Source of the DNA: Desulfoscipio sp. XC116
Lineage (GTDB): Bacteria; Bacillota; Desulfotomaculia; Desulfotomaculales; Desulfallaceae
DNA length: 64,000 bases
Reading direction: 5' to 3'
NCBI RefSeq assembly: GCF_039851975.1
Contig: NZ_CP156660.1
Span: 2,299,035-2,363,034, forward strand
Each line of letters begins with the position of its first letter. The first letter of the stretch is position 1. Positions 21,099-56,707 of the stretch are shown in pieces. A model generated the notes under the pieces. The model saw only the letters and a program-made list of their open reading frames with translations. It was not told the origin of the DNA and made no database searches. Made by a program: the position numbers and the translations under genes.

Positions 21099-21920
21099 TT
21101 ACTTACGGAATTTACTGAAATCGGGTTCTCTTTTTTCCATAAATGCATTTCTACCCTCCACGGCTTCATCTGTGCCGTAGTATAGATTTAAAGCAATTCC
21201 GGCCATAGAATGAATACCCCATATGGATTCGGTATCCGCATTAAAAGATGTCTTGAGAGCAGCTAAGGAAGTAGGACTGTGGGATAGCAAAGTATCACAC
21301 ATCTTTTCCACTTCTTCCTCTAAATTTTCAGACGGGACTACCTTGTTCACCAACCCCATTTCCAGAGCATCATCCGCAGTGTACTGCTGGCAGAGGTACC
21401 AGATTTCCCTGGCCTTCTTTTCACCGACCACTCTGGCCAAATAAGCGGAGCCATAACCAGCGTCGAAACTGCCGACCCGTGGGCCAGCCTGGCCAAACTT
21501 GGCCTTTTCAGAAGCTACGGATAGATCACAGACCACATGAATAACGTTGCCACCACCAATGGCGTAACCGTTGACCATAGCCACCACAGGCTTGGGAATC
21601 ATTCTAATTATTTGTAGAAGCAGGGCGTGGTTGTTGGCCAGGGGCAGGTTTTCCAGTCCCTCCAGACCGTTCTTCTCAGACTCCGCACCGGCATAACCCC
21701 CTTTTGAGCGAATAGATTGATCTCCTCCGACACAAAAAGCTCTATCACCAGCACCGGTAATGATAACCACACCTACATTTTTATCAGTCCAAGCATCTAT
21801 AAGAGCACTGATCATTTCCTGCAAAGTATGGTTGGTGAAGGCATTTAGTTTATCGGGCCTGTTAATAGCAACCTTGGCTCTCCCATCGTATTTTGTATAA
21901 AGGATATCTTCAAATCTCAT
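21099..21920 (-). CDS. badI: BadI/MenB-like ring-cleaving crotonase (2-ketocyclohexanecarboxyl-CoA hydrolase)
   Basis: 273-residue crotonase-fold enzyme of the MenB/BadI branch: AINRPDKLNAF, DRAFCVGGDQSIRSKGGY, VNGYAIGGGNVIHVVCDLSV, GPRVGSFDAGYGSAYLARVV and KKAREIWYLCQQY. MenB closes the naphthoate ring and BadI opens 2-ketocyclohexanecarboxyl-CoA to pimeloyl-CoA; both keep these lines. I favour BadI because the C-terminal NLYYGTDEAVEG and GYAIGGGNV resemble BadI, no men gene is near, and the upstream neighbours match the BadH and cyclohexanecarboxyl-CoA dehydrogenase steps. It is the last gene of an operon read from the sigma-54 promoter at 24045. GGGAGG precedes the ATG. Confidence 0.75.
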   Translation of the reverse strand: MRFEDILYTKYDGRAKVAINRPDKLNAFTNHTLQEMISALIDAWTDKNVGVVIITGAGDRAFCVGGDQSIRSKGGYAGAESEKNGLEGLENLPLANNHALLLQIIRMIPKPVVAMVNGYAIGGGNVIHVVCDLSVASEKAKFGQAGPRVGSFDAGYGSAYLARVVGEKKAREIWYLCQQYTADDALEMGLVNKVVPSENLEEEVEKMCDTLLSHSPTSLAALKTSFNADTESIWGIHSMAGIALNLYYGTDEAVEGRNAFMEKREPDFSKFRK

Positions 21921-21988
21921 AATTAATCCCTCCCGAATTTATTTAAAGAATAATAGCAATCTACAAAAGCTGCCTTGCACACCTTTTC

Positions 21989-23155
21989 TTAATATGGTAG
22001 ATATTCCCGACCAAAAACTTCCCTGGAAATAATAATTTTTTGTACCTGAGCCGTACCATCGCCAATTTGCAGTCCAATAACATCCCTCATGCGCTGCTCT
22101 ACAGGAAATTCCCTGGTGTAACCATAGTGTCCGTGAATAAGCAGACAGTCATGGATGGCAGTCACTGATATCTCCGGGCACAGCCATTTACACATTGCGG
22201 CTTCTTTGGTATGGGGCAATCCTTCATCCCTTAACCAAAGGGTGCGATAACATAGCCAACGGGCAGCTTCCAGCCTGGTAAGCCATTCCATCAGGGGGAA
22301 GGAGATACCTTCGAATTTCGCCAAGGGCTGGCCAAAGACGTTACGCTGCTTCACGTATTCAATAGTCTCTTCAATAGTTTTCTGCGCCGCACCCAGGCAC
22401 ATGAGGGCAATAATCACGCGACTGTAATCAAAGGCCTGCATTACCTGAATAAAGCCGCCCCCTTCGTCACCAATTAAATTTTCCGCTGGTACAACCACGT
22501 CATCTAAGAAGAGTGAGCCACGTACAATGGCTTTGCTGCCCATATCCGGATACGACTGTATGGTAATTCCCGGCTGGTCCAGGGGTACCAAAAAAGCGCT
22601 AATCCCTTTAGCTCTGGCCGTAGGATCAGTTTTAGTAAATACTACGGCAGCATTAGCAGCCCTGAGCAAGCTGATGGCGGATTTTTCCCCGTTTAAAACA
22701 TAATTATTTCCTTTTTTGATAGCCCGTGTACTTATGGCTGCCGCGTCGCAACCCGCATGGGGCTCGGTTAAAGCTATACAGACTATTTTTTCCCCTGTGG
22801 CCATCTTAGTCAACCAGTTTGTTTTTACTAGTTCGGTCGCGAATCTATCCAATATATCCCCAACCAGACAGTTCATCAGTACACCATATGAGCAGTTAAA
22901 GTCACCCCTGGCAAGCTCTTCGGCAATCAAACCGGCCGTGACGCAGTCGGCTTCTTGACCTCCGTATTGTTCGGAAATCCGCAGGCCCAATAGATCCAGC
23001 TCAGCCATCTTGGCCCATTGCTCATAGGGAAACTCTTCTTTCTCATCCCAATAACCATACTTGGGAAGCAGTACTTTATTAGCAAAGTTCCTTACAACCT
23101 TAGCCATAGATTCCTGAACATCGCTAAATCTAAAATCCAAGTCAATCTCTCCCAT
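21989..23155 (-). CDS. Acyl-CoA dehydrogenase, probably cyclic acyl-CoA type
   Basis: FAD enzyme of 388 residues with all three ACAD domains: N-terminal helices, the beta domain with IALTEPHAGCDAAAISTRA and YVLNGEKSAISLL, and the C-terminal helices with YVKQRNVFGQPLAKFEG and LIHGHYGYTREFPVEQRMRD. Where medium-chain enzymes have the catalytic Glu in ...EGT..., this one has Asp (GLQIGDGTAQVQ). Such a change fits dehydrogenases acting on cyclohexane-carboxyl-CoA type substrates. Electrons would go to ETF. It stands between badI and the badH-like gene in one operon. Substrate is inferred from context. The start has no strong ribosome binding site. Confidence 0.8.
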   Translation of the reverse strand: MGEIDLDFRFSDVQESMAKVVRNFANKVLLPKYGYWDEKEEFPYEQWAKMAELDLLGLRISEQYGGQEADCVTAGLIAEELARGDFNCSYGVLMNCLVGDILDRFATELVKTNWLTKMATGEKIVCIALTEPHAGCDAAAISTRAIKKGNNYVLNGEKSAISLLRAANAAVVFTKTDPTARAKGISAFLVPLDQPGITIQSYPDMGSKAIVRGSLFLDDVVVPAENLIGDEGGGFIQVMQAFDYSRVIIALMCLGAAQKTIEETIEYVKQRNVFGQPLAKFEGISFPLMEWLTRLEAARWLCYRTLWLRDEGLPHTKEAAMCKWLCPEISVTAIHDCLLIHGHYGYTREFPVEQRMRDVIGLQIGDGTAQVQKIIISREVFGREYLPY

Positions 23156-23248
23156 CTAACATTATTTCATCAATAAATCCGAACCCTAATCTACATAACT
23201 TAAAGCATCCCTTGGACTTTTAACCTATCAGCAACTACAATTAATTGG

Positions 23249-24001
23249 CTACAGCATATTTAACCCGCCATTAACACTTAAAGTCTGGCCGGTAATATAA
23301 GCGGCCTCTTCAGAAGCCATAAACAACACTGCATTAGCAAGATCATCCGGCTGAGCCAAACGACGGAAAGGTATTGTTTTAACCAGAGCCTCAGCAATTT
23401 TAGGATTCCCTGCCGCAATTTCGGCAAAAAGCGGTGTATCGGTAGGACCGGGAGCCACACAATTAACGCTGATTTTATTCCGAGCCATTTCCCTAGCCAG
23501 AGTTTTGGTGAATGCAATAACCCCTCCTTTAGCAGCGGAATACACCGCTTCACCCGAAGAACCAACCCTGCCGGCATCAGATGCTATGTTGACAATCCTA
23601 CCCGATTTCTGAGAAATCATTATAGGTAATACTGACCGGCAAAAACTTATTGTCCCTTTAAGATTAACAGCTATCACCTTATCCCAGGTGTCTTCCGTAC
23701 TTTCCATAAAGGGCTCAATTTTATCCCAACCGGCGTTATTAATTAATATATCCACCCTGCCGTATTTCTCCAGCACAGCATCAACCAAATCATCCACCGA
23801 TTTTTTTTTAGCTACATTTACTCTCACAGCCAGGGCATCACCGCCGAGCGACTCAATTTCTCCGGCCACACAGGCAGCCGTGCTTAAATCCAAATCAGCC
23901 ACCACAACTTTTGCGCCTTCTTTAGAAAAAGTTGTGGCAATGGCGCAGCCAATCCCCCTGCCAGCCCCAGTGACAATAGCTACCTTATCCTTAAGTCTCA
24001 T
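23249..24001 (-). CDS. badH: BadH-like short-chain dehydrogenase (2-hydroxycyclohexanecarboxyl-CoA dehydrogenase)
   Basis: 250-residue SDR with the NAD site GAGRGIG (residues 12-18), NNAG near 88 and catalytic Ser/Tyr/Lys as YSAAK. It closely follows BadH lines: NNAGWDKIEPF, RIVNIASDAGRVGSSGEAVY, SAAKGGVIAFTKTLARE, APGPTDTPLFAE and a C-terminal ITGQTLSVNGGLNML. BadH oxidises 2-hydroxycyclohexanecarboxyl-CoA to the 2-keto compound, the substrate of BadI, encoded two genes on. GGAGGTG precedes the ATG. First gene of the operon; a sigma-54 promoter ends about 45 bases upstream. Confidence 0.78.
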   Translation of the reverse strand: MRLKDKVAIVTGAGRGIGCAIATTFSKEGAKVVVADLDLSTAACVAGEIESLGGDALAVRVNVAKKKSVDDLVDAVLEKYGRVDILINNAGWDKIEPFMESTEDTWDKVIAVNLKGTISFCRSVLPIMISQKSGRIVNIASDAGRVGSSGEAVYSAAKGGVIAFTKTLAREMARNKISVNCVAPGPTDTPLFAEIAAGNPKIAEALVKTIPFRRLAQPDDLANAVLFMASEEAAYITGQTLSVNGGLNML

Positions 24002-24044
24002 TTTTACACCTCCGCAAATTTTAAATATTCAAAATTAATGGAAT

Positions 24045-24060
24045 TGCAATTTGTTTGCCA
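24045..24060 (-). promoter_or_regulatory. Sigma-54 promoter of the badH-ACAD-badI operon
   Basis: Minus-strand TGGCAAACAAATTGCA: a -24 TGG and a -12 TTGCA with exactly ten bases between GG and GC, as in the RpoN consensus. It stands 43 bases before the badH start, with palindromic activator sites 40-105 bases further up. Confidence 0.8.
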
Positions 24061-24101
24061 GATGCCAACCTATTCATTATTAAAGTAATTTCTTAAAATA
24101 A

Positions 24102-24149
24102 TGCACTAATCAACTATTCAATAGTGCAATTTATCTTGCAATATTGCAA
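24102..24149. promoter_or_regulatory. Upstream activator sites (TTGCA/TGCAA palindromes)
   Basis: TTGCAATATTGCAA (24136-24149) is a perfect palindrome, and TGCACTA (24102-24108) pairs with TAGTGCA (24122-24128). They lie 40-90 bases upstream of the sigma-54 promoter at 24045. Similar TTGCA...TGCAA elements stand before the other two promoters and the activator gene at 26510. Confidence 0.65.
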
Positions 24150-24164
24150 TTAGCTGCTAAAAAA

Positions 24165-24191
24165 TCAAAAACCGCTACCCACTGTAGCGGT
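24165..24191 (-). terminator. Intrinsic terminator behind the acid-CoA ligase
   Basis: ACCGCTAC (24171-24178) and GTAGCGGT (24184-24191) form a perfect 8-bp stem; on the minus strand it is followed by TTTTGATTTTTT. It separates the ligase transcript from the badH operon, which has its own promoter. Confidence 0.8.
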
Positions 24192-24260
24192 ATAAAGTAG
24201 ATTAACAATCTATAGTTTTTCTAAAGTAAATAATATACTGCAAATGCGGAAGGTTAATTA

Positions 24261-25928
24261 CTAAACCTTTTCGAGTAACCCTAGCTGCATGTCTTTTTCA
24301 ACCTGCCGCGCCAGCTTATAATGTATTTTTTTCCCGGTGGCGGTCATGGGCAACTGTTCCACAAATTTATAATATCTCGGTCTCTTATAATTTGCCAGCA
24401 TCGGATGCTCCACGCAATATTTGTTCAGCTCACCAGCTGTAAGCGAAGTATCGCTTTTTATCACATAAGCAACTATTATTTGCCCCCATTTTTGGTCACG
24501 CAACCCCACTACTACCGAATCATAAACTTTCGGGTTCTCGTTAAGCGCCTCCTCAACTTGTACCGGAAAAACGTTCTCACCACCGGATATAAGCATATCG
24601 TCTTTTCTGCTAACAATGGTTACATATTCGCTTTTATCCCAGGTAGCCAAATCACCAGTATACATCCAACCTTTATAAAACCGTTTTTTACTTTGCCCTG
24701 GATTATTAAAGTAGCTGTAAGAACATTTTCCGGGACACCAAACAATTACTTCCCCGACTTCCTGATTGTCCCGGGCAACACATTCATAAGGCTCGGCCAG
24801 ATGATCATTGTAGACCTTCACTACAGCCATATCATCGTCCGTGCAAGTTCTCCCGGCGCTGCCGGCCTTCTGCGGCAGATCAAAAGGCCTTAAAAAAGTA
24901 TTCCAGAATGACTCGGTAGTACCATACCCGTTGAAAATGTTCGGCGTGAGCACATCCTGGTATCTGATACAGGCCTCTTTTTCCAGTGGAGCCCCCATAG
25001 TCACTATGCCCTTTAGGGTACTAATATCTCTTGAGCTATTAACTTGCTGATCACACAACATCTTAAGCACGGGAGGCACACCAATTAAAAAAGTAATACT
25101 GTATTTTTGCACATAATCCAAAACTGTTTCGGCATTGAAATTTCGCAACACGATCACCTCTCCGCCTACGTAAAGGGTCGGATTCGGACCTCCCGAATAC
25201 AACCCGCCACGATGGAACCACGGAGTCATATTCATTGTCTTATCCAGGGGACTCAGAGGGAAGTGCATTATCACATCATGGGCGCTTAATATTTCGTTTA
25301 TTTGATTCAAAGGAACCCCTTTGGGCATGCCGGTGGTCCCTGATGTATACAGGCGAGTGACTTCATCATAAATATAAGGGCGGTGCTCAACCGACGGTTC
25401 TGTATCGGGCATATCGCGAATATAATCCTCGAAGGTGATGGTGCCGGGAATATTACTGCCTTTATCGGAATAGTCAACCAGCACGATCCTTTTAGGCTTG
25501 TGCCCGGCTATCTCCAGTGCTTCTTCCACTGTCTCACTAATATCAGAATCATAGACAAATACTGCAGGCTTGCATTCGTCAATTACATAAGCAGTTTCTC
25601 CGGGAGAAAGGCGGAAATTTATTGGGCAATTAATAGCACCGATTTTTTGCGGTACAAGATAAAGAAAAACATATTCGGAGCAGTTAAATAACTGGTACAT
25701 AACCACATCATGCTTATTAACACCGTCTTTCAGCAGCGCATTGGCCAGTTTGTTACAATCCAAATTCAATTCCGCATAAGACCAGCTTTTTTCCCTGACA
25801 GTACAGGTTAAAGCCTTCCTGTCCCCGAAACGGCGGGTATTACGCAAAAAACCATTAATATAAGTAAATTCATGTTCAAATGTCTCTCTGAACATCTCAA
25901 CATCATAAGTGAGCTGCATATCCAACAT
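24261..25928 (-). CDS. Acid-CoA ligase, probable cyclohexanecarboxylate-CoA ligase
   Basis: 555-residue AMP-forming ligase. Visible core motifs: LYTSGTTGMPKGVPL (phosphate loop), FNGYGTTESFW, YTGDLATWDKSEYVTIVSRK, DDMLISGGENVFPVQVEEAL and LPMTATGKKIHYKLARQ with the C-terminal catalytic Lys. It makes an acyl-CoA from a free acid with ATP. Because it faces the same way as badH/badI and shares sigma-54 control and the same activator palindromes, cyclohexane-1-carboxylate or a related alicyclic or aromatic acid is the likely substrate. AAAGGATGG precedes the start. It is a single-gene transcript closed by the terminator at 24165. Confidence 0.85.
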   Translation of the reverse strand: MLDMQLTYDVEMFRETFEHEFTYINGFLRNTRRFGDRKALTCTVREKSWSYAELNLDCNKLANALLKDGVNKHDVVMYQLFNCSEYVFLYLVPQKIGAINCPINFRLSPGETAYVIDECKPAVFVYDSDISETVEEALEIAGHKPKRIVLVDYSDKGSNIPGTITFEDYIRDMPDTEPSVEHRPYIYDEVTRLYTSGTTGMPKGVPLNQINEILSAHDVIMHFPLSPLDKTMNMTPWFHRGGLYSGGPNPTLYVGGEVIVLRNFNAETVLDYVQKYSITFLIGVPPVLKMLCDQQVNSSRDISTLKGIVTMGAPLEKEACIRYQDVLTPNIFNGYGTTESFWNTFLRPFDLPQKAGSAGRTCTDDDMAVVKVYNDHLAEPYECVARDNQEVGEVIVWCPGKCSYSYFNNPGQSKKRFYKGWMYTGDLATWDKSEYVTIVSRKDDMLISGGENVFPVQVEEALNENPKVYDSVVVGLRDQKWGQIIVAYVIKSDTSLTAGELNKYCVEHPMLANYKRPRYYKFVEQLPMTATGKKIHYKLARQVEKDMQLGLLEKV

Positions 25929-26132: not shown

Positions 26133-26148
26133 TGCAATTAATCTGCCA
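26133..26148 (-). promoter_or_regulatory. Sigma-54 promoter of the acid-CoA ligase
   Basis: Minus-strand TGGCAGATTAATTGCA has -24 TGGCA and -12 TTGCA with the exact GG-N10-GC spacing. The start site would fall near 26122, giving a leader of about 190 bases before the ligase. The leader and the 25929-26130 stretch show no gene. Confidence 0.8.
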
Positions 26149-26437: not shown

Positions 26438-26509
26438 CTACGTACATGTCCATAACTGTTATAAATTTGCATGGATAACCACAAGGAACTGAAAACATGG
26501 GGGGATAAC

Positions 26510-27349
26510 ATGAGTAGTTTTGCCGCCTACAGGCATAATAATAATGATTCGCTTGTTGCTCAATCAACTGAAATGAGAGAACTTATAGGAACAGCAACTC
26601 AAGTGGCCAAGGTGGATTGCACTGTTTTACTGCTGGGTGAATCTGGTACCGGTAAAGAGGTGTTGGCCAAGTTAATACATCAACACAGCAAACGCCCCGG
26701 TCCCCTGGTCAAAGTAAACTGTGGTGCCATTCCCGAAACACTGCTAGAATCAGAACTTTTTGGATATGAATACGGCGCTTTTACTGGCGCCAAAAGAGAA
26801 GGTAGCGCCGGGAAGTTTGAGCAAGCCCATATGGGCACTATTTTACTGGACGAAATTGGCGACTTACCGCTGCATCTACAGGTTAAACTACTGCGTATTC
26901 TCCAGGAAAAAGAAGTTATACGGATAGGAGGCAACAAGGCCAAACCGATAGATACCAGGGTCATTGCAGCCACCAATAAAAATTTATACAAGATGGTGCA
27001 GGAAGGTACATTTAGAGAAGATCTTTTTTATAGGCTTAATGTTATCCCCCTTAAAATACCTCCTTTAAGAGAGCGTAAAAGGGACATTATGCCTCTGATT
27101 TACGCCTTTAAAAAAAAATTTGAACAGAAATATAGACATAAAATGAATTGTTCTCCCGAAGTTATTCGCGTTTTCATGTCCTACGACTGGCCAGGCAATG
27201 TCCGGGAACTTGAAAATGTCGTTGAAAGAATTTATGTAATTTCATCACCCTATGAGTTAGTTACTCAAGAAATACTAATACAGGATTATTTAAATATCCA
27301 TAGACAAAAACAGCTGGCGGATAAACCCGTATCCGTCTACGGTTTATAA
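26510..27349 (+). pseudogene. Sigma-54 activator, AAA+ part; gene split by an IS3-family element
   Basis: ATG at 26510 follows GGGGGG by 5 bases. The frame encodes an enhancer-binding protein with only ~25 residues before the AAA+ domain, so no sensor domain (PspF-like layout). Walker A is GESGTGKE, the sigma-54 contact loop GAFTGA is intact, Walker B is GTILLDEIGDLPL, and FYRLNVIPLKIPPLRERKRD and WPGNVRELENVVERI follow. It stops at TAA 27347-27349, created by the IS insertion right after PVSVYGL. Its DNA-binding end lies at 28997-29152. Without it the remaining protein could still touch sigma-54 but should not bind its sites. Confidence 0.9.
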
Positions 27350-27435
27350 TGGACCCAGGAAATGCGACACGATTTTGCGAGGGATAAGCGACACCAATCT
27401 CGAAGTAAAATAACTAAGTGAAAGGAGCATATCCC

Positions 27436-27744
27436 ATGCAAAAAAAACAATGGTTACCGGAGCAAAAACTGCAGATAGTTCTAGAAGCCTTAAAAGAAGA
27501 ACGCCACATAGGCGAAATTGCCTCGGAATACGGAGTACATGTGAGTGTGGTTCACCGCTGGAAGAAGGAGCTCTTAGAAGGCGCCGACAAGGTATTCGCC
27601 ACCTCTAAGAATGCTAAAGCCGCTGCCCAAGAAAAGCGCAAACAAGAAGAAACCATCGAGAACTTATACGCGCAAGTCGGCCGTCTAACAACACAGTTGG
27701 ATTGGCTTAAAAAAAAATCTAGCGGCATCTTACCCCGTGAATGA
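27436..27744 (+). CDS. IS3-family transposase OrfA
   Basis: ATG at 27436 follows AAAGGAG by 8 bases. The 102-residue product has the IS3 OrfA helix-turn-helix (LQIVLEALKEERHIGEIASE, YGVHVSVVHRWKKELL) and a leucine-zipper-like coiled coil with NLYAQVGRLTTQLDWLKKK. It binds the element ends. The frame ends in ILPRE-TGA; slipping one base forward there gives PRE-ERKAM, which continues into OrfB, so an OrfAB fusion by +1 frameshift or an old one-base change is possible. Confidence 0.9.
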   Translation: MQKKQWLPEQKLQIVLEALKEERHIGEIASEYGVHVSVVHRWKKELLEGADKVFATSKNAKAAAQEKRKQEETIENLYAQVGRLTTQLDWLKKKSSGILPRE

Positions 27745-28603
27745 ACGCAAAGCTATGGTGAATTGGGATATCACAAATTCACATTTAACCATAAAAGTTC
27801 AGGCCGAGCTATTATCCTTGAATCGAACGGGTTTATACTGGACTGCCCAAAAGGTGTCTAAACACGAAGTGGAGATTAAACATCTGATTGACAAGATCCA
27901 CACGCAGCATCCATTTAAAGGCTCCAGGCGGATTGTTGACGACATAAATAACATGGATGATGTAGATTACAAGGTCAACCGCAAACGCATTCAAAAATAT
28001 ATGCGGGAAATGGGAATACGGGTGATTTACCCCGGCCCCAACCTCAGCAAACGTAACAGAGCTCAGTATGTTTACCCATACCTGCTTCGGAATGTCAAAG
28101 CAGCCCACCCCAACCATGTCTGGGGAATTGATATTACGTATTGTGCCATGCAAGGCCGCTGGATGTACCTGGTGGCTATAATTGACTGGTACTCCAGGAT
28201 GATTGTTGGATATGAGCTCTCCGATACGATGAATAAGGAATTTGTCATTAAAGCTGTAAACAGAGCCATCGAAATACACGGAACTCCTATCATATTAAAT
28301 TCTGATCAGGGCAGTCAATTTACCAGCCCTGTCTATATAAATACACTCAAAGAACATAGCATCAAAATCAGTATGGACGGTAAAGGTAGGGCCCTGGATA
28401 ACGCTATTACAGAGCGCTTTTGGAGAACCATTAAATGGGAAGATATTTACCTGAAGAATTATGAAACCCCCCGTACTCTCCGACAAGGAATTGCTGCTTT
28501 TATGCGTTATTACAATTTCGAGCGTCCACATACATCTATTGGCAAGAGGACTCCAGCAAGCGCTTATTATGCTACTAACAACTTATCGCAGCAATCTGCA
28601 TAA
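27737..28603 (+). CDS. IS3-family transposase OrfB
   Basis: 288 residues with the retroviral-type integrase core: an N-terminal HTH_21-like part (IKHLIDKIHTQHPFKGSRRI, RKRIQKYMREMGI), then the DDE residues in VWGIDITYC, LNSDQGSQFTS and NAITERFWRTIKWEDIY, and the closing YNFERPHTSIGKRTPASAY. The frame overlaps OrfA by 8 bases. It looks intact, so the element may be recent and active. Confidence 0.93.
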   Translation: MNERKAMVNWDITNSHLTIKVQAELLSLNRTGLYWTAQKVSKHEVEIKHLIDKIHTQHPFKGSRRIVDDINNMDDVDYKVNRKRIQKYMREMGIRVIYPGPNLSKRNRAQYVYPYLLRNVKAAHPNHVWGIDITYCAMQGRWMYLVAIIDWYSRMIVGYELSDTMNKEFVIKAVNRAIEIHGTPIILNSDQGSQFTSPVYINTLKEHSIKISMDGKGRALDNAITERFWRTIKWEDIYLKNYETPRTLRQGIAAFMRYYNFERPHTSIGKRTPASAYYATNNLSQQSA

Positions 28604-28647
28604 CCAAGATATTTGAAAGTGGATGTAAACAAAGAGGCCGCCGGTCT

Positions 28648-28783
28648 TGACTCCATGTGCCGCTTAATAGATAACCCGACCGACGGATATACGCCAAAAA
28701 AATATTTGCCTTCGGTCGGGTTGTTTAAGTCTAGCACATGGAGTCAAGGCTCTCCGCTTCGCTCCGACCGCAAGCGGCGGCTA
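28648..28783 (+). repeat. Large imperfect hairpin and dispersed repeat inside the IS
   Basis: CTTGACTCCATGTGC (from 28648) and AACCCGACCGA pair with TCGGTCGGGTT and GCACATGGAGTCAAG (ending 28750), separated by ~20 bases around an A/T-rich loop. Bases 28709-28783, covering the right arm and a following CGCTTCGCTCCGACCGC block, recur inverted at 4748-4822. The unit lies between orfB and the right end of the element. Confidence 0.65.
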
Positions 28784-28996
28784 GGTTTTGTGAATAGGGA
28801 TAACGTACCCTCCCTCTGGAGACCGCCACATTTTATGACTACTGTCAAATATTAGGCTAGCTAGCATGTGTTTACCTTAATGCGGCTTTCTAACGTATCG
28901 AAACATTCGACCATGAAGGCCTTGCTGTTAATACTTACTCAGTGTCGCTTTGAATTTGAAAAATTGTGTCTTGACATTGGGGTCCATTGTAGTTTA

Positions 28997-29152
28997 ACTT
29001 CGCTTAAATCAGCAGTGGAAGAAGTTGAACGTCAGTTAATAACCATGGCTTTGAACGAATATAAAACTTTAAAACAAGTTGCTCTGGCTCTGAAAGTGGA
29101 TGAATCAACCATTAGCCGTAAGATTAAGAAACTCAGCATTCCTTTGCGATAA
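28997..29152 (+). pseudogene. Sigma-54 activator, displaced C-terminal helix-turn-helix
   Basis: Continues the frame of 26510-27346 when the IS and one GTTTA are removed: ...PVSVYGL is followed by TSLKSAVEEVERQLITMALN and KQVALALKVDESTISRKIKK, the Fis/TyrR-like helix-turn-helix that ends enhancer-binding proteins. The restored protein would be 330 residues. TAA at 29150-29152 ends it. A frame starting upstream at GTG/ATG codons inside the IS could in theory express it alone, but no ribosome binding site was seen. Confidence 0.85.
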
Positions 29153-32044: not shown

Positions 32045-32842
32045 ATGTTTAGTATGTCATACGAAACCTTGCTAATAAAAACAAATGATAACATTTTAAC
32101 AATTATCTTAAACAAACCAAAATCTATGAACGCCTTTAGCCTCACTATGTTTAATGAATTGAATGATGCGTTTAACGAAATTAATAAGCGTGAGGACATC
32201 AGGGTTCTTATTATTAAAGGAGCTGGACGTACATTCTCAGCCGGTGGAGAAATGGAAATGTTAAATACACTCAATCAATTGAAAGGAGCTAAGCTGGAAA
32301 AGACCCTTACAGGAATCATATCCCTGGCAAGTAAGTTTATGAAACTAAGGCAGCCAACAATATCTTCTATCCATGGTTATTGTCTTGGTGTCGGATGTTC
32401 AATTGCTATGCTTAGTGATATAAGGATAGCTTCCGAGGATGCTGTGCTTGGGCTGGAATTTGTAGGCATGGGAATTATCCCAGATACAGGGGCACTCTAC
32501 AGTCTACCAAGAATAATTGGCCTTAGCAAAGCAAAGGAGTTAGCTCTTACGAACAGAAGAGTAAATTCCCAAGAAGCAGAAAAAATAGGTATGGTTAATT
32601 CTGTAGTCCCAAGGGATCAGCTGGAAACTAAGGTGGAAAAAGTAGCATGTCAGATAGCTTCTTTGCCACCGATTGCAATAGAAATGACAAAAAAGCTTCT
32701 TAATGATTCCCTTAGACAGAACTTAGACGAAATTTTAAGATACGAAGCTCTGGCACAAACAATTTGTCTTAATACCGAGGATCACAAAGAGGCTGTTTCT
32801 GCTTTTCTTTCCAAAAGAAAACCTTTTTTTACAGGCAAGTGA
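32045..32842 (+). CDS. Enoyl-CoA hydratase/isomerase, PaaG-like
   Basis: 265-residue crotonase with the oxyanion-hole lines FSAGGEMEML and SIHGYCLGVGCSIAMLSDIR. Both hydratase glutamates are missing: Ser stands where GCEL has Glu, and Phe where QPE has Glu (VLGLEFVGMGIIPDTGALYS). Instead the PD-x-G Asp of the PaaG subgroup is present, so a double-bond isomerase or a related reaction is more likely than plain hydration. GGAGAG precedes the start. It lies between a ligase and a thiolase in the same direction. Confidence 0.85.
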   Translation: MFSMSYETLLIKTNDNILTIILNKPKSMNAFSLTMFNELNDAFNEINKREDIRVLIIKGAGRTFSAGGEMEMLNTLNQLKGAKLEKTLTGIISLASKFMKLRQPTISSIHGYCLGVGCSIAMLSDIRIASEDAVLGLEFVGMGIIPDTGALYSLPRIIGLSKAKELALTNRRVNSQEAEKIGMVNSVVPRDQLETKVEKVACQIASLPPIAIEMTKKLLNDSLRQNLDEILRYEALAQTICLNTEDHKEAVSAFLSKRKPFFTGK

Positions 32843-43610: not shown

Positions 43611-48400
<4,790 letters not shown>

Positions 48401-50614: not shown

Positions 50615-50760
50615 TAGCATAGCATTGCGATAAAATTTAGCCTTTAGTGATAAATTTGCATTAATATAGATATACAAAATGACTTTATAAAACAGAAATG
50701 TCTGAATTAGCAGGGATTGACAATGGTTTTGACGAAAGATGCAGTGGGGGTATACATATA

Positions 50761-52287
50761 ATGCTGACCATTGTCAAAAGCTTAGCCTTAAATGGCCTGG
50801 ATAGTTACATTGTGCGGGTTGAGGTGGATGTGTCCAGTGGTCTTCCAGGATTTGACATTGTAGGCCTGCCGGGTGCTGCGGTGCGGGAAGCTAAAGATCG
50901 AGTGCGCGCCGCTATAAAAAACGCCGGGTTTGATTTTCCCGCCAAACGCATTACTGTTAATCTGGCCCCGGCGGATCTAAAAAAGGAAGGTCCGGTTTAT
51001 GATCTGGCCATATCACTGGGAATATTGTCTTCAACAGAACAAATTGATTCCGAGTGGGTCAACGTCTATATATTTATTGGTGAGCTGTCCCTGGACGGGT
51101 CAATCCGGAGCATAAACGGGGTATTGCCCAGGGTTATGCTGCTGCCGGCAGATGGCTGTGATCAAGTTGTTGTACCGGCTGAAAACGCTGACGAGGCTGC
51201 CCTGATTCAGAGCATAAAAGTATATCCCGCTCCCAACTTGATTCGTTTAATTCGACATTTGCAAGGTGAAGAACTTATATGTCCCCATACTGTGGACAGC
51301 AATAAATTCTGGACCAAACGCAACGTCACAGGGGATATGTCCGATGTACGCGGACAGCTGGTTGTAAAGCGCGGTCTGGAAGTAGCCGCAGCCGGTGGAC
51401 ATAACATTTTAATGCTGGGGTCCCCCGGCTCGGGAAAGACCATGCTGGCCCGTCGGTTACCCGGCATATTGCCCGATTTGTCACTCGCTGAAGCACTGGA
51501 GATAACCAATCTTTACAGCCTGGCAGGACTTCTGCAGCCCAACCAACCGCTGGTTACGGAACGTCCTTTTCGTTCCCCGCATCATAACACATCTACTTCA
51601 GCGCTGGTCGGAGGGGGTAAATACCCCAAGCCGGGTGAAATCAGCCTGGCCCACTTGGGGGTACTCTTTCTTGACGAGACTGCCGAGTTTAAAAGAGATG
51701 CCTTGGAAGCGTTACGACAGCCATTGGAAGATGCTGTGGTAACTATTTCCCGTGTACACTCCTCTGTCACCTATCCCGCCAGAATCATGCTTGTGGCTTC
51801 AATGAATCCTTGTCCGTGTGGTTTTCTGGGTGATACGGAGCGGGAGTGCTCGTGCACACCATTACAGATAAAGCATTATTTAAACCGTCTCTCCGGGCCA
51901 CTGCTTGACCGTTTCGAAATTCAGATAGATGTACCCCGTCTTACCTTTAACGATCTGGAAAACAGCCCGCCGGGTGAAGCTTCGGAAACTATTCGCCAAA
52001 GGGTGCAGGCAGCCAGGGAAACGCAATTTACCCGGTTCGGCAAAGAAGCATGTAATGCCGAGATGTCTCCGGCGCAAATAAAGAAGCACTGCCGGTTGAA
52101 TACTGAAGCTGCGGATTTATTGCGCACGGCCTTCAACCGCCTGAAGCTCAGTGCCCGCGCCCATAATAAAATTATTAAAGTGGCGCGCACCTTGGCTGAT
52201 CTTGCGGGCTCTGAACAAATACAGGTTGAGCATGTAGCGGAAGCCGTCCAATACAGGGGAATGGAAAGAAAGTACTGGGGTGCTTGA
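50761..52287 (+). CDS. YifB/ComM-family Mg-chelatase-like AAA+ ATPase
   Basis: ATG at 50761 gives the usual 508 residues and the family start MLTIVKSLALNGLDSYIVRV; a frame opening 21 codons earlier looks unrelated. ChlI-like N-domain (SGLPGFDIVGLPGAAVREAK, VNLAPADLKKEGPVYDLAIS), Walker A MLGSPGSGKTMLARRLPGIL, the RPFRSPHHNTS loop, Walker B GVLFLDETAEF and a C-terminal Mg_chelatase_C part (RAHNKIIKVARTLADLAGSE). ComM members help branch migration in DNA recombination. It is not linked in function to its neighbours. Confidence 0.93.
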   Translation: MLTIVKSLALNGLDSYIVRVEVDVSSGLPGFDIVGLPGAAVREAKDRVRAAIKNAGFDFPAKRITVNLAPADLKKEGPVYDLAISLGILSSTEQIDSEWVNVYIFIGELSLDGSIRSINGVLPRVMLLPADGCDQVVVPAENADEAALIQSIKVYPAPNLIRLIRHLQGEELICPHTVDSNKFWTKRNVTGDMSDVRGQLVVKRGLEVAAAGGHNILMLGSPGSGKTMLARRLPGILPDLSLAEALEITNLYSLAGLLQPNQPLVTERPFRSPHHNTSTSALVGGGKYPKPGEISLAHLGVLFLDETAEFKRDALEALRQPLEDAVVTISRVHSSVTYPARIMLVASMNPCPCGFLGDTERECSCTPLQIKHYLNRLSGPLLDRFEIQIDVPRLTFNDLENSPPGEASETIRQRVQAARETQFTRFGKEACNAEMSPAQIKKHCRLNTEAADLLRTAFNRLKLSARAHNKIIKVARTLADLAGSEQIQVEHVAEAVQYRGMERKYWGA

Positions 52288-52852: not shown

Positions 52853-53097
52853 ACCACAACAACACCGGATACCACCGGCTGACATTGCCTTATCAGTGTA
52901 TGCGACAATACAAGATATAAACCTCCACCATGTGGATCATTATGAAGCGCTACGCGAGCACCCTGCACAGCTCGCCGGAACGCAGGCAAAAGTGTGATAA
53001 GTAAGACCTCCTGCATTTAATTTTCTAAATGTTTTTTATAAACTGAACAGGATGGCATTTGTTTGGCAATGGTAATCTAAACGGAGGCTGTAACTAT

Positions 53098-54222
53098 ATG
53101 TTTGAAAAGAGCTCGCCATATACACCAATTGATTATTTGGAATTACTCCTTGAAGAGGCCGCCCTTAACGGCACAAAACGCAGGGAACGTTACCCCCAAA
53201 AACGTTTTTTCGGGTATTTTTGCAGTTACTGGCCGGAGGAGTTAATTCTAGCTGCAGGCCTTGAACCTTTGCGCATCCTCCCCACCACCACCCGGGGCAC
53301 CCCGTCTGAACTGCCTGCCTATTGCTGCTCACTGGCCAGAATCAGCCTGGCCGGCGCCATATCCGGCAATTACAAGGACCTGGCCGGGACGGGGTTTGCG
53401 CATACCTGCGACACCATGCAGTGCCTGGGAGGAATCTGGGGCCGAACCTTAGCTCCCGGGACCGCCCTGTCTATGGTACCGCCGGTCATTCTGAACACCC
53501 CGGCGGCTGACCGGTTTTACGAAAGCGAACTGGATGCTCTGCTGCAGAAATTAAGCAGTATAACAGGATGCCGGCCTGATGCGAATAAAATAGGCAAGGC
53601 CATAGAGCTTTGCGAACACATCCGCAGCTTGGTGGCTGAACTCGACAATATGCGTGCGGAATTACCTTCGCCGCTGGTTTCAGCTTTGCTGCGGGCCGGC
53701 CAGGTAATGCCCCGGACTGAATATGCCGAGGCTCTGAAAGCCGCACTGCCAGCTATCAGGGAAAAGACGGCCAGCAACCCAAGCCATCGTCGGATATTGA
53801 TAAGCGGGCCTGTTTTGGAAAACGACAGTTTATTTAAAATGGTGGAGGAACTGGGTGGCCGGATAGTGGCCGATGACACCTGCACTGGGAATCATCACTT
53901 TTTAACGATGAGCGATATCCAATATGGAACCGACCCGCTTAAAGCGATTGTCCGGCGTTACTCCACCATGCCTCCCTGCCCGTGCCGCCATCGTGGTTTG
54001 GAGGAGCGAGTGGATTACCTGGTAAAATTAGCACAAGGCCGGCAAGCTGTTGGCGCCTTATTGGTGGTAAGAAAATACTGTGACCCGCACGCTTGGGATT
54101 CTGTACCCCTCGCCCAAAGAATGCGTTCGGCAGGCATAAATACGCTGGTATTAGAATTAGAGAGAGCGGAAGTTGGCGGACAAGAGCGCACCCGGCTGCA
54201 AGCTTTTTTAGAAAGTCTATAA
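53098..54222 (+). CDS. 2-hydroxyacyl-CoA dehydratase/benzoyl-CoA reductase family subunit (HgdB/BcrC-like)
   Basis: ATG at 53098, with GGAGG upstream, gives 374 residues, the HgdB length. Cluster cysteines typical of the family: FGYFCSYWPEELILAAGLEP, PAYCCSLARISL, HTCDTMQCLGG, VADDTCTGNHHF, PPCPCRH and VVRKYCDPHAWD. These enzymes use a radical mechanism, with electrons from an ATP-driven activase, to dehydrate 2-hydroxyacyl-CoA or to reduce aromatic acyl-CoA rings. The second subunit and the activase follow in the same direction. The true substrate cannot be read. Confidence 0.85.
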   Translation: MFEKSSPYTPIDYLELLLEEAALNGTKRRERYPQKRFFGYFCSYWPEELILAAGLEPLRILPTTTRGTPSELPAYCCSLARISLAGAISGNYKDLAGTGFAHTCDTMQCLGGIWGRTLAPGTALSMVPPVILNTPAADRFYESELDALLQKLSSITGCRPDANKIGKAIELCEHIRSLVAELDNMRAELPSPLVSALLRAGQVMPRTEYAEALKAALPAIREKTASNPSHRRILISGPVLENDSLFKMVEELGGRIVADDTCTGNHHFLTMSDIQYGTDPLKAIVRRYSTMPPCPCRHRGLEERVDYLVKLAQGRQAVGALLVVRKYCDPHAWDSVPLAQRMRSAGINTLVLELERAEVGGQERTRLQAFLESL

Positions 54223-54257
54223 TCTGATTAAAGCCGTAAATTAAGGAGAGATAAAAA

Positions 54258-55487
54258 ATGGCCGAAAAGCGCCGCTATCTACCATTAGCCAGCACGCAAC
54301 ATTTGGAAAAAATGATGACTAAATACTACGCATTGTCGCGATATCATAGGCTTTGGGGCAAGCCCTTAAAACGGCCGCTGGCCTGGATCACCAGCGGCGC
54401 CCCGGTGGAGCTGTTAAGGGCTTTTAATATACATCCCGTTTATCCGGAAAATTACGGAGCTATTTGCGGGACCAGACGGGTATCCGCCAATCTCTGCCAG
54501 GTGGCTGAGGCAACGGGATATTCCCAGGATCTTTGCTCTTACGCCCGGTCTCATATCGGCTCTATTATACGTCCCGACCTAGCCCCTATGGGCGGGCTGC
54601 CCAAACCCCCGGACATGCTGGTATGCTGCACCAACATCTGCGGCACCGTGCTTAAATGGTACGAAGCACTGGCCCGCATATTTAAGGTGCCGCTGCTGGT
54701 GCTGGATACTCCCTTTTTACCCGGTGACTTGACCGTCCACGCCAGAGAATATGTATATGCACAGCTTAAGGAAATGGTTAAAAACCTGGAGCATCTGACC
54801 AATCGCCGCTTCAACCGGGAAGAATTGAGCCGGCAGCTCGCCCGGAGCAATGAAACCATCCAACTTTGGAAAGAAATTCGGCAGTTTTGCCGTAATACAC
54901 CATCACCGCTTAACGCTCCGGATCTGTTCATTCATATGGCTCCCATAGTGACCCTGCGGGGGACCCAACAGGCGGTCGACTATTACCGTAAGCTCAGGGA
55001 TGAAGTTAAACAAAGGGTACAGCAAAGCCAGGGAGCGGTTGACGGAGAGAAAATTCGCCTGGTTTGGGACAATATAGCCATCTGGTATCAAATATTCGGC
55101 TTTTTTAAAATGTTCTCCGAACAAGGAGCCTGCTTTGTCACCGATACATACAGCGGTGGTTGGGTTATGGAGCTTTCGCCGGGCGACCCGCTGGAAAGCA
55201 TGGCCGCCACTTACACCGAAATATTTTTAAACCGTTCCCCGGAATTTAGGGCTCGTCAAATAATTGAATTAATTCAGGAGTACGAAGCAGACGGTTTTGT
55301 TATGCACTCTAATCGATCCTGCAAGCCTTACTCATTGGTGCAGGAGATAATTCGCCGTCAGGTAATGCGGGAAACCGGCGTTCCGGGCTTAATGATAGAA
55401 GCGGATATGGCAGATCAAAGAGCATATGCGGAAGAACCTATCCGCAACCGGGTACAGGCTTTTTTGGAAACAGTAGGCGGCATTTAA
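54258..55487 (+). CDS. 2-hydroxyacyl-CoA dehydratase/benzoyl-CoA reductase family subunit (HgdA/BcrB-like)
   Basis: 409 residues, starting 35 bases after the first subunit, AGGAG before ATG. Family lines: LAWITSGAPVELLRAFNIHP, VSANLCQVAEATGYSQDLCS, DMLVCCTNICGTVLKWYEAL, LVWDNIAIWYQIFGFFKMFS, DGFVMHSNRSCKPYSLVQEI and VPGLMIEADMADQRAYAEE. It would form the heterodimer that holds the [4Fe-4S] clusters. Only one activase is present, so the set is closer to the dehydratase plan (HgdABC) than to four-subunit class I benzoyl-CoA reductase. Confidence 0.85.
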   Translation: MAEKRRYLPLASTQHLEKMMTKYYALSRYHRLWGKPLKRPLAWITSGAPVELLRAFNIHPVYPENYGAICGTRRVSANLCQVAEATGYSQDLCSYARSHIGSIIRPDLAPMGGLPKPPDMLVCCTNICGTVLKWYEALARIFKVPLLVLDTPFLPGDLTVHAREYVYAQLKEMVKNLEHLTNRRFNREELSRQLARSNETIQLWKEIRQFCRNTPSPLNAPDLFIHMAPIVTLRGTQQAVDYYRKLRDEVKQRVQQSQGAVDGEKIRLVWDNIAIWYQIFGFFKMFSEQGACFVTDTYSGGWVMELSPGDPLESMAATYTEIFLNRSPEFRARQIIELIQEYEADGFVMHSNRSCKPYSLVQEIIRRQVMRETGVPGLMIEADMADQRAYAEEPIRNRVQAFLETVGGI

Positions 55488-55580
55488 ACACCCGGCTGGC
55501 TTTGCCGTGTCGCTCCGCTCCCCGCAATTATCACGCGTCGCACGCACCACGATAAACGAATATATGTCATTGCCGGCTAA

Positions 55581-55685
55581 TGTCATTGCGAGCGCAGCGA
55601 AGCAATCCCAGACTCCGCAGCGGGTCCCCCAAAGAAATGCGGGCTGCAAAACGGGTTGCTTTGTTGCTTTGCAGCCCGCAATGAC
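55581..55685. repeat. Palindromic GTCATTGC element
   Basis: Outer arms GTCATTGC (55582-55589) and GCAATGAC (55678-55685) enclose GAGCGCAGCGAAGCAATCCC and a perfect inner pair GCGGGCTGCAAA (55639-55650)/TTTGCAGCCCGC (55668-55679). This GTCATTGCGAGCGNAGCGAAGC type of unit is a known dispersed repeat of several anaerobes. The rest of 55488-55924 shows no gene. Confidence 0.7.
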
Positions 55686-55924
55686 GGACTTTAAGCGTCA
55701 CAGGTTTTATTCATAGCAATGACAGACTTTAAGCACCGTAGCTTGCAATCATAGCAACGACAAGCCGATCTATTTTCATCTTCCGCTGATGCAGCAACAG
55801 AGCGGCATGAATGCCTATTTCCAATATCGCAACCAATCAATACCAAGCTCGTTATCATCTACCAGACTTATTATCATTTACAAAGCCCATTATTATTTAT
55901 ATTGCTAGAATTAGGAGGAATAAA

Positions 55925-56707
55925 ATGAATCGTTACTACTTGGGAGTAGACATAGGTTCACTTACGACAAAGGTGGTGCTGGTTAGCACCGAAGGGAAAC
56001 CGGTGGCCGGAGCCACAGGGCGCTCGGGCTACAGCGGCCGCAACGTGGCCGAACGGCTGACAACTGAATTACTGCATAAGAATAATCTGGATAAAAGGGA
56101 TATAGCTGCAACAGTGGCCACCGGCTATGGCCGTATCACCTTCCCCGCCGACCGTGAAGTATCCGAGATCACCTGCCAGGCCCGGGGCATTGCCCACCTG
56201 TTCGGTGACGCCAGAACGGTTATTGATATCGGCGGACAGGACAGTAAAGTAATCAAAATGTTACCCGGTGGAAAAGTAGTTGATTTTGCCATGAACGACA
56301 AGTGTGCCGCGGGTACGGGGCGTTTTCTGGAGGTCATGGCCGGAGCATTGGAACTGCGGGTTGAGGACTTAGGCAAGTTGGCCGCGGAAGCACAGGAGCA
56401 GTGTATTATTTCATCATTTTGCACGGTTTTTGCGGAATCCGAAGTTATCTCCCATGTGTCCGCCGGTGCAAAAAAAGCGGACATAGTAGCCGGAGTTTGT
56501 GATTCAGTAGCCGCACGGGTAGCCGCTATGACATCACGCACCGGTTTGGAGCTTAAGATAGTTTTTACCGGCGGTGTAGCCCGCAACTCCGGTGTCACAC
56601 ACGCACTGGCCAAACAGCTGGGCCAACAGCTTTTTGTGCCCGACGAGCCTGAGATTACGGCGGCTTTGGGAGCAGCTCTAATAGCGAAAAGCATGGAAGC
56701 CCGTTAG
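55925..56707 (+). CDS. ATP-dependent activase of 2-hydroxyacyl-CoA dehydratase family (HgdC/BadG-like)
   Basis: ATG at 55925 has GGAGGA upstream; an earlier in-frame ATG would add 38 residues unlike the family. 260 residues with the BcrAD/BadFG ASKHA fold: YLGVDIGSLTTKVVLV, VATGYGRITF, TVIDIGGQDSKVIKM, NDKCAAGTGRFLEVMA, SSFCTVFAESEVISHVSAG and VFTGGVARNSGVTHAL. The two cysteines (NDKCAAGTG and SFCTVFAE) bind the single [4Fe-4S] cluster shared by a dimer. It feeds electrons to the two subunits encoded upstream, after a 437-base gap with a repeat. Confidence 0.93.
   Translation: MNRYYLGVDIGSLTTKVVLVSTEGKPVAGATGRSGYSGRNVAERLTTELLHKNNLDKRDIAATVATGYGRITFPADREVSEITCQARGIAHLFGDARTVIDIGGQDSKVIKMLPGGKVVDFAMNDKCAAGTGRFLEVMAGALELRVEDLGKLAAEAQEQCIISSFCTVFAESEVISHVSAGAKKADIVAGVCDSVAARVAAMTSRTGLELKIVFTGGVARNSGVTHALAKQLGQQLFVPDEPEITAALGAALIAKSMEAR

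Follow-up and report, generated by a model that had tools for sequence, protein, structure and literature searches.

A bad-ali-like gene set with sigma-54-type promoter sites in Desulfoscipio sp. XC116, proposed for the degradation of a saturated alicyclic acid

A stretch of 64,000 nucleotides from the genome of Desulfoscipio sp. XC116 (contig NZ_CP156660.1, positions 2,299,035 to 2,363,034; hereafter the window) was examined regarding a set of four genes on its minus strand. In minus-strand order, these encode an acyl-coenzyme A (CoA) ligase (24261..25928), a BadH-like short-chain dehydrogenase (SDR, 23249..24001), an acyl-CoA dehydrogenase similar to the cyclohexanecarboxyl-CoA dehydrogenase AliB (21989..23155) and a crotonase of the BadI/MenB type (21099..21920), with gaps of 259, 93 and 68 bp between them. 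The four open reading frames named by an earlier reading of this DNA, below called the original prediction, are all present on this strand. All four genes also occur together in a genome of a different genus of the same family (G012), with protein identities of 84-89%. Thus, the set is no chance grouping. Of the genes known from bad-ali clusters, aliB-, badH- and badI-like ones are adjacent here, next to a ligase that is not recognisably AliA; plasmids of Marinobacter and Haematobacter carry badH, badI, aliB and a ligase together as well. The original prediction of an alicyclic acid degradation set is supported by this bad-ali-like gene content and by the family placement of the proteins, but not in its view of the missing hydratase as an oddity; nor is the hydrolase a BadI by the curated cut-off.

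For the dehydrogenase the best NCBIfam model was TIGR03207 (cyclohexanecarboxyl-CoA dehydrogenase) with 435 bits, where the cut-off of 575 was not reached. The second-best model was acryloyl-CoA reductase (318 bits), and the score on NF043006 (cyclohexane-1-carbonyl-CoA dehydrogenase) was 203 of 650. In a tree of 20 acyl-CoA dehydrogenases the protein formed one clade (100/100) with its homologues of G012 and G028 and with the annotated aliB products of Marinobacter (L053) and Haematobacter (L055); four of the 13 other acyl-CoA dehydrogenases of the own genome were left out of this tree and stand in no other. Ordinary acyl-CoA dehydrogenases use a glutamate near the C terminus as their catalytic base. 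Aspartate was found there in all eight AliB-type proteins read, that of the window included, and glutamate in 13 of the 15 other rows; the remaining two have alanine and threonine. Judged by these sequence features, 21989-23155 is an AliB-type acyl-CoA dehydrogenase. This agrees with the cyclic-type enzyme originally predicted, and a grouping with plain short-chain enzymes did not occur.

The label BadH-like was likewise borne out for the SDR, with TIGR03206 (BadH) as its top NCBIfam model, though with 316 bits under the cut-off of 431. In a weakly supported tree of 22 SDRs it fell into a group of 15 rows together with proteobacterial badH-type proteins (94/96, not starred). The ligase matched general ligase models only, and no cut-off was reached among the best 25 of 104 families. 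Homologues adjoining the set were found in G012 (86% identity), G068 (74%) and G317 (71%), and a partial one of 266 amino acids in G009 (81%). In the latter genome the ligase beside the set is only a C-terminal-type open reading frame (L033 8840-9640), and AliB is absent there.

The hydrolase scored highest with models of MenB (1,4-dihydroxy-2-naphthoyl-CoA synthase): 373 bits with NF005637, where the cut-off of 380 was not reached, and 350 bits with TIGR01929, where that of 342.7 was passed. The BadI model TIGR03210 came third with 339 bits, below its cut-off of 467.6. In a tree of 26 rows with no fixed root, from which eight of 34 rows had been omitted as long or distant, MenB (11 rows), proteobacterial BadI-type proteins (7) and a clade with the window protein (7) were each separated with 100/99; the G317 protein stood outside all three, and the MenB-like protein of G120 is in none of the trees. 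Hence, the enzyme predicted as BadI-like does lie outside MenB, but it is below the BadI cut-off and belongs to a clade of its own. Of the BadI-type rows, L053 and L055 can serve most safely as bad-ali references. L051 and L059, which have a 2,4-dienoyl-CoA reductase but no aliB next to them, may be mrc-like; aliB is also missing from the vicinity of L060, and L054 and L058 carry a name other than badI. Tyr97, Gly156, Ser161, Asp163 and Tyr258 (E. coli numbering), the catalytic residues of MenB, are conserved in all rows of the window clade (7/7), the BadI type (7/7) and MenB (11/11). The hydrolase chemistry is plausible; the substrate is not readable from sequence. No member of the window clade was among the best 80 loci of a wider scan of genome contigs (best segments 56-60% identity). 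A more distant BadI-like clade was noticed at L045 11289-18568, L048 8236-12771 and L049 8072-14825. It has BadH-like SDRs nearby, HgdB-like proteins with an activase in L045 and L049, and a thiolase and crotonases in L048 and L049; perhaps it represents another ring-opening route.

No crotonase with both glutamates of hydratases was found in the window, so that badK is not in the cluster. The crotonase at 32045, for which the original prediction had already pointed out the absence of both glutamates, has serine and phenylalanine at these two positions and was ruled out as the missing hydratase. Of 15 ECH_1 matches in the own genome, two are inside the window. Both glutamates are kept by nine of the 13 crotonases outside it, namely by eight of the 12 scored and by the 807-amino-acid fusion protein 445368, which was omitted from the scoring for its length and read from a separate alignment. 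According to PMC9795900, badK is missing from most bad-ali clusters of Burkholderiales and from some others, and a badK-like gene lies elsewhere in most cases. The absent badK is therefore ordinary, given these published clusters and the nine two-glutamate crotonases elsewhere in the own genome. The gap that the original prediction saw in the window is real but no oddity, and its option of a hydratase elsewhere is probably correct.

In G317 the gene immediately downstream of badI encodes a two-glutamate crotonase; the same 20-kb stretch also contains the genes of the ligase, the activator, AliB and BadH as well as a beta-oxidation set. A BadK orthologue of this type was looked for in the own genome and rejected, as the best match had only 37% identity. 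In G034 a distance of 3.4 kb separates badH from the end of a block that encodes an acyl-CoA dehydrogenase, a hydratase and a 3-hydroxyacyl-CoA dehydrogenase. Its counterpart in the own genome is C1:1824450-1831373, with six genes of 58-85% identity (hydratase 76%) and an additional thiolase. By this likeness, the block is the best candidate for the lower pathway and possibly also for the hydration.

AliB homologues (E <= 1e-90) were detected in four of 113 genomes of the order, the own included, and in none of six congeners; an even draw of the phylum gave two of 398, again with the own genome. The protein 50698-52287, presumably ComM-like, was used as control. Its best match was 81-86% identical in each congener, 76% in G012, 58% in G068 and 56% in G317. 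The set reached 84-89% with G012 and 72-83% with G068, the activator described below included. With G317 identities were 71% for the ligase, 69% for AliB and 63% for the activator; those of BadI (59%) and BadH (52%) were essentially no higher than that of the control. This comparison suggests that the set was spread by horizontal transfer, for which one control protein is thin evidence.

The regulatory features of the locus are new relative to the original prediction. Both strands of the window were scanned for sigma-54-type -24/-12 sites. Four sites matched 11 of 12 consensus positions, whereas 100 block shuffles gave 0.48 such sites on average. Two of the four precede the two transcription units of the set on the right strand: 24045..24060, 59 bp from the start codon of the badH-like gene, and 26133..26148, 220 bp from that of the ligase. 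Sites with 11 of 12 positions were also found in L031 and L156, and one with 10 positions in L032. The palindrome TTGCAATATTGCAA at 24136..24149 is a candidate activator site. In the two upstream stretches the density of TTGCA/TGCAA words is 10-12 times that of the window, and a similar palindrome lies upstream of badH in L031.

Divergent to the ligase, a gene of a RocR-like sigma-54 activator was identified (26471..27349, plus strand; Pfam Sigma54_activat). Homologues beside the set have 63-82% identity in L031-L034 and L156 and a weaker 48-51% in L035 and L036. The window gene, 82% identical to the longer L031 protein, holds only the N-terminal and AAA+ part. Its helix-turn-helix end is found about 1.6 kb further on (28992..29152, plus strand; tblastn 78% to L031 residues 279-341), beyond an insertion sequence of 1645 bp, presumably IS3-like (27347..28991, plus strand), which splits the gene and is flanked on both sides by the 5-bp repeat GTTTA. 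Three further copies of the element in the genome match by 100% over at least 1626 of 1631 bases searched. Therefore, the insertion is probably recent. With its activator gene split, the set may be uninduced in this genome, though the AAA+ fragment might remain active from solution, and the own genome encodes further RocR-like activators. Such activators stand next to beta-oxidation genes in five of 12 own stretches read (L142, L144, L145, L146, L149), so that acyl-CoA catabolism may be under sigma-54 control more generally in this genome.

Taken together, these features point to a horizontally spread pathway resembling bad-ali, by which cyclohexanecarboxylate or a closely related saturated alicyclic acid would be converted to a CoA ester of the pimelyl type; in this genome it is possibly not induced. 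We estimate the probability of this reading at about two thirds. The ligase would form the CoA ester of the acid and the AliB-type enzyme would convert it to the ring 1-ene-1-carboxyl-CoA. An unlinked enoyl-CoA hydratase, with G000:C1:1828413-1829192 in the beta-oxidation block as candidate, would add water. The BadH-like SDR would oxidise the ring alcohol, and the BadI-like crotonase would open the beta-keto ring by hydrolysis to the pimelyl-type CoA ester, which the block C1:1824450-1831373 would degrade. Both transcription units would be read by the sigma-54 RNA polymerase with the RocR-like activator, and the split activator gene could leave the set uninduced.

Several observations weigh against this route. 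None of the four proteins reached the curated NCBIfam cut-off of its own bad/ali family, the hydrolase passed one curated MenB cut-off (TIGR01929), and in the well-fixed columns that differ its clade shares seven with MenB and four with BadI. The ligase is not recognisably AliA, and a BadK orthologue of the G317 type is missing from the own genome. Of the six relatives with a hydrolase of this clade, only G012 has AliB next to it (absent from the stretch read in the other five), and in the stretch read of G044 (L035) neither BadH nor a matching ligase was found. The clade therefore need not mean cyclohexanecarboxylate, and outside G012 it probably serves substrates needing no AliB-type dehydrogenase. 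Regarding the regulation, two of the four best sigma-54-type sites lie elsewhere in the window (34112 and 37741), the 5' leader of the ligase would be long, and the TTGCA-N4-TGCAA palindrome is absent from L032.

The same chemistry could act on another ring, for instance that of a naphthenic acid or of a ring acid that is substituted or derived from terpenes. A substituted beta-keto ring would then undergo BadI-like hydrolysis, which has been proposed for the mrc monoterpene pathway of Castellaniella. We consider this unlikely, though clearly the strongest of the alternatives. The separate hydrolase clade and the ligase unlike AliA are in its favour, as is the lack of AliB near five of the six window-clade relatives. 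PMC9795900 suggests monoterpenes for badKHI clusters without aliAB, and the Castellaniella ring cleavage (PMC4109377) likewise processes a ring CoA ester through BadH- and BadI-like steps. The window unit differs from it by the lack of an adjacent hydratase and by its AliB-type dehydrogenase. Such an enzyme, required when the ring acid is saturated, also belongs to the units of G012 and G317 and speaks against this alternative.

That the set runs in reverse or as an electron sink, with cyclohexenyl-CoA reduced to cyclohexanecarboxyl-CoA, appears very improbable. In its favour, an acryloyl-CoA reductase model ranks second for the dehydrogenase, and BamA occurs in four of six congeners (24 of 150 genomes). 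In the own genome, however, no known source of cyclohexenyl-CoA was detected: BamA (TIGR03200) gave no match at 1e-60, AFOR_C for class II benzoyl-CoA reductase gave none, and no HGD-D protein came near the benzoyl-CoA reductase cut-offs.

Three HGD-D proteins of the own genome exceed the Pfam cut-off. One is a double-cubane reductase (490 of 350); the pair at 53059-55487 scored 121 of 454 (BzdN) and 188 of 487 (BcrB), far off the class I cut-offs. With its activase (53059-56707) this pair was rejected as benzoyl-CoA reductase, being 2-hydroxyacyl-CoA dehydratase-like, far below every cut-off shown and apart from the alicyclic set. The search for class I and II reductases, proposed as a check in the original prediction, thus found none in the own genome. 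Since BamA and reductases of both classes were not found, the route looks independent of benzoyl-CoA. In G068 BamA, above cut-off, lies within the same gene run as badH and badI.

Least probable is a menaquinone MenB at 21099-21920 that happens to adjoin catabolic genes: the MenB models score highest and TIGR01929 is passed, but the protein groups in its own clade outside MenB, so that the refuting result named in the original prediction did not occur, and MenD is absent from the own genome and seven others. In the latter search, all eight genomes examined for which a protein of the window clade or the G317 counterpart is on record gave no match at E <= 1e-60 (G081, G107, G118, G120 and G145 were not among the eight), and for this reason the hydrolase is not regarded as a menaquinone MenB. 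MenD was above cut-off in four of 51 genomes (G001, G003, G005, G046), exactly those of the 51 with MenB proper. On both grounds this explanation was rejected as largely refuted. With MenB the hydrolase shares the crotonase subfamily and the catalytic residues named above, and the solved structures that match it best are all MenB; it differs in that the N-V-L-D-type MenB loop is replaced. The BadI-like protein of G317 (L156 3473-4273), from an aliB cluster in a genome without MenD, exceeds the two main curated MenB cut-offs. It is likely misnamed MenB by annotation, which illustrates an annotation trap.

Compared with the bad-ali clusters of Rhodopseudomonas palustris and Aromatoleum sp. CIB (PMC9795900), the set of the window is alike in combining ligase, AliB-type, BadH-like and BadI-like genes and, as many published clusters, in missing badK. 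It differs by the hydrolase clade, the scores below curated cut-offs, the ligase and the control: MarR- or TetR-type regulators are given there, whereas sigma-54-type sites and an activator are found here. With the chc/Bam route of Geobacter metallireducens it would share the anaerobic use of cyclohexanecarboxylate; it differs from that route by the low NF043006 score and by the absence of BamA from the own genome. As reported in PMC9795900, R. palustris was the one anaerobic cyclohexanecarboxylate degrader to which the chc postulate did not extend, and that paper then shows an exception in denitrifiers; the Gram-positive genera in the legend of its Figure 6 are Rhodococcus and Corynebacterium. 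No open-access paper describing badH, badI or aliB in anaerobic Bacillota was found, judged by title or the start of the abstract. PMC7916938 counts badK/H/I by KEGG number in metagenome-assembled genomes, and a Firmicute case is possible among them.

If correct, a set of the bad type in a Bacillota lineage of anaerobic type would add to the known exceptions to the chc postulate, and alicyclic acid degradation would gain a sigma-54 control system. The broader formulation, a horizontally spread, sigma-54-controlled alicyclic module of anaerobic Bacillota with its own MenB-annotatable hydrolase clade, following a bad-type route in a genome without a known benzoyl-CoA pathway and contrary to the postulate, is tentative, and we hold the odds to be somewhat against it. 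Because the activator gene is split, growth on cyclohexanecarboxylate could fail in this strain.

The window also contains 23S and 16S ribosomal RNA genes on the minus strand (43611-48399), and ARAGORN found no tRNA in it. The originally assigned label Firmicute is consistent with the 16S gene (46866-48399), since 11 of the 12 matches listed from a plasmid collection carry Bacillota names (83.8-84.6% identity). As a taxonomic hint only, MenB of three congeners is 88-90% identical to that of a Peptococcaceae metagenome-assembled genome (L120).

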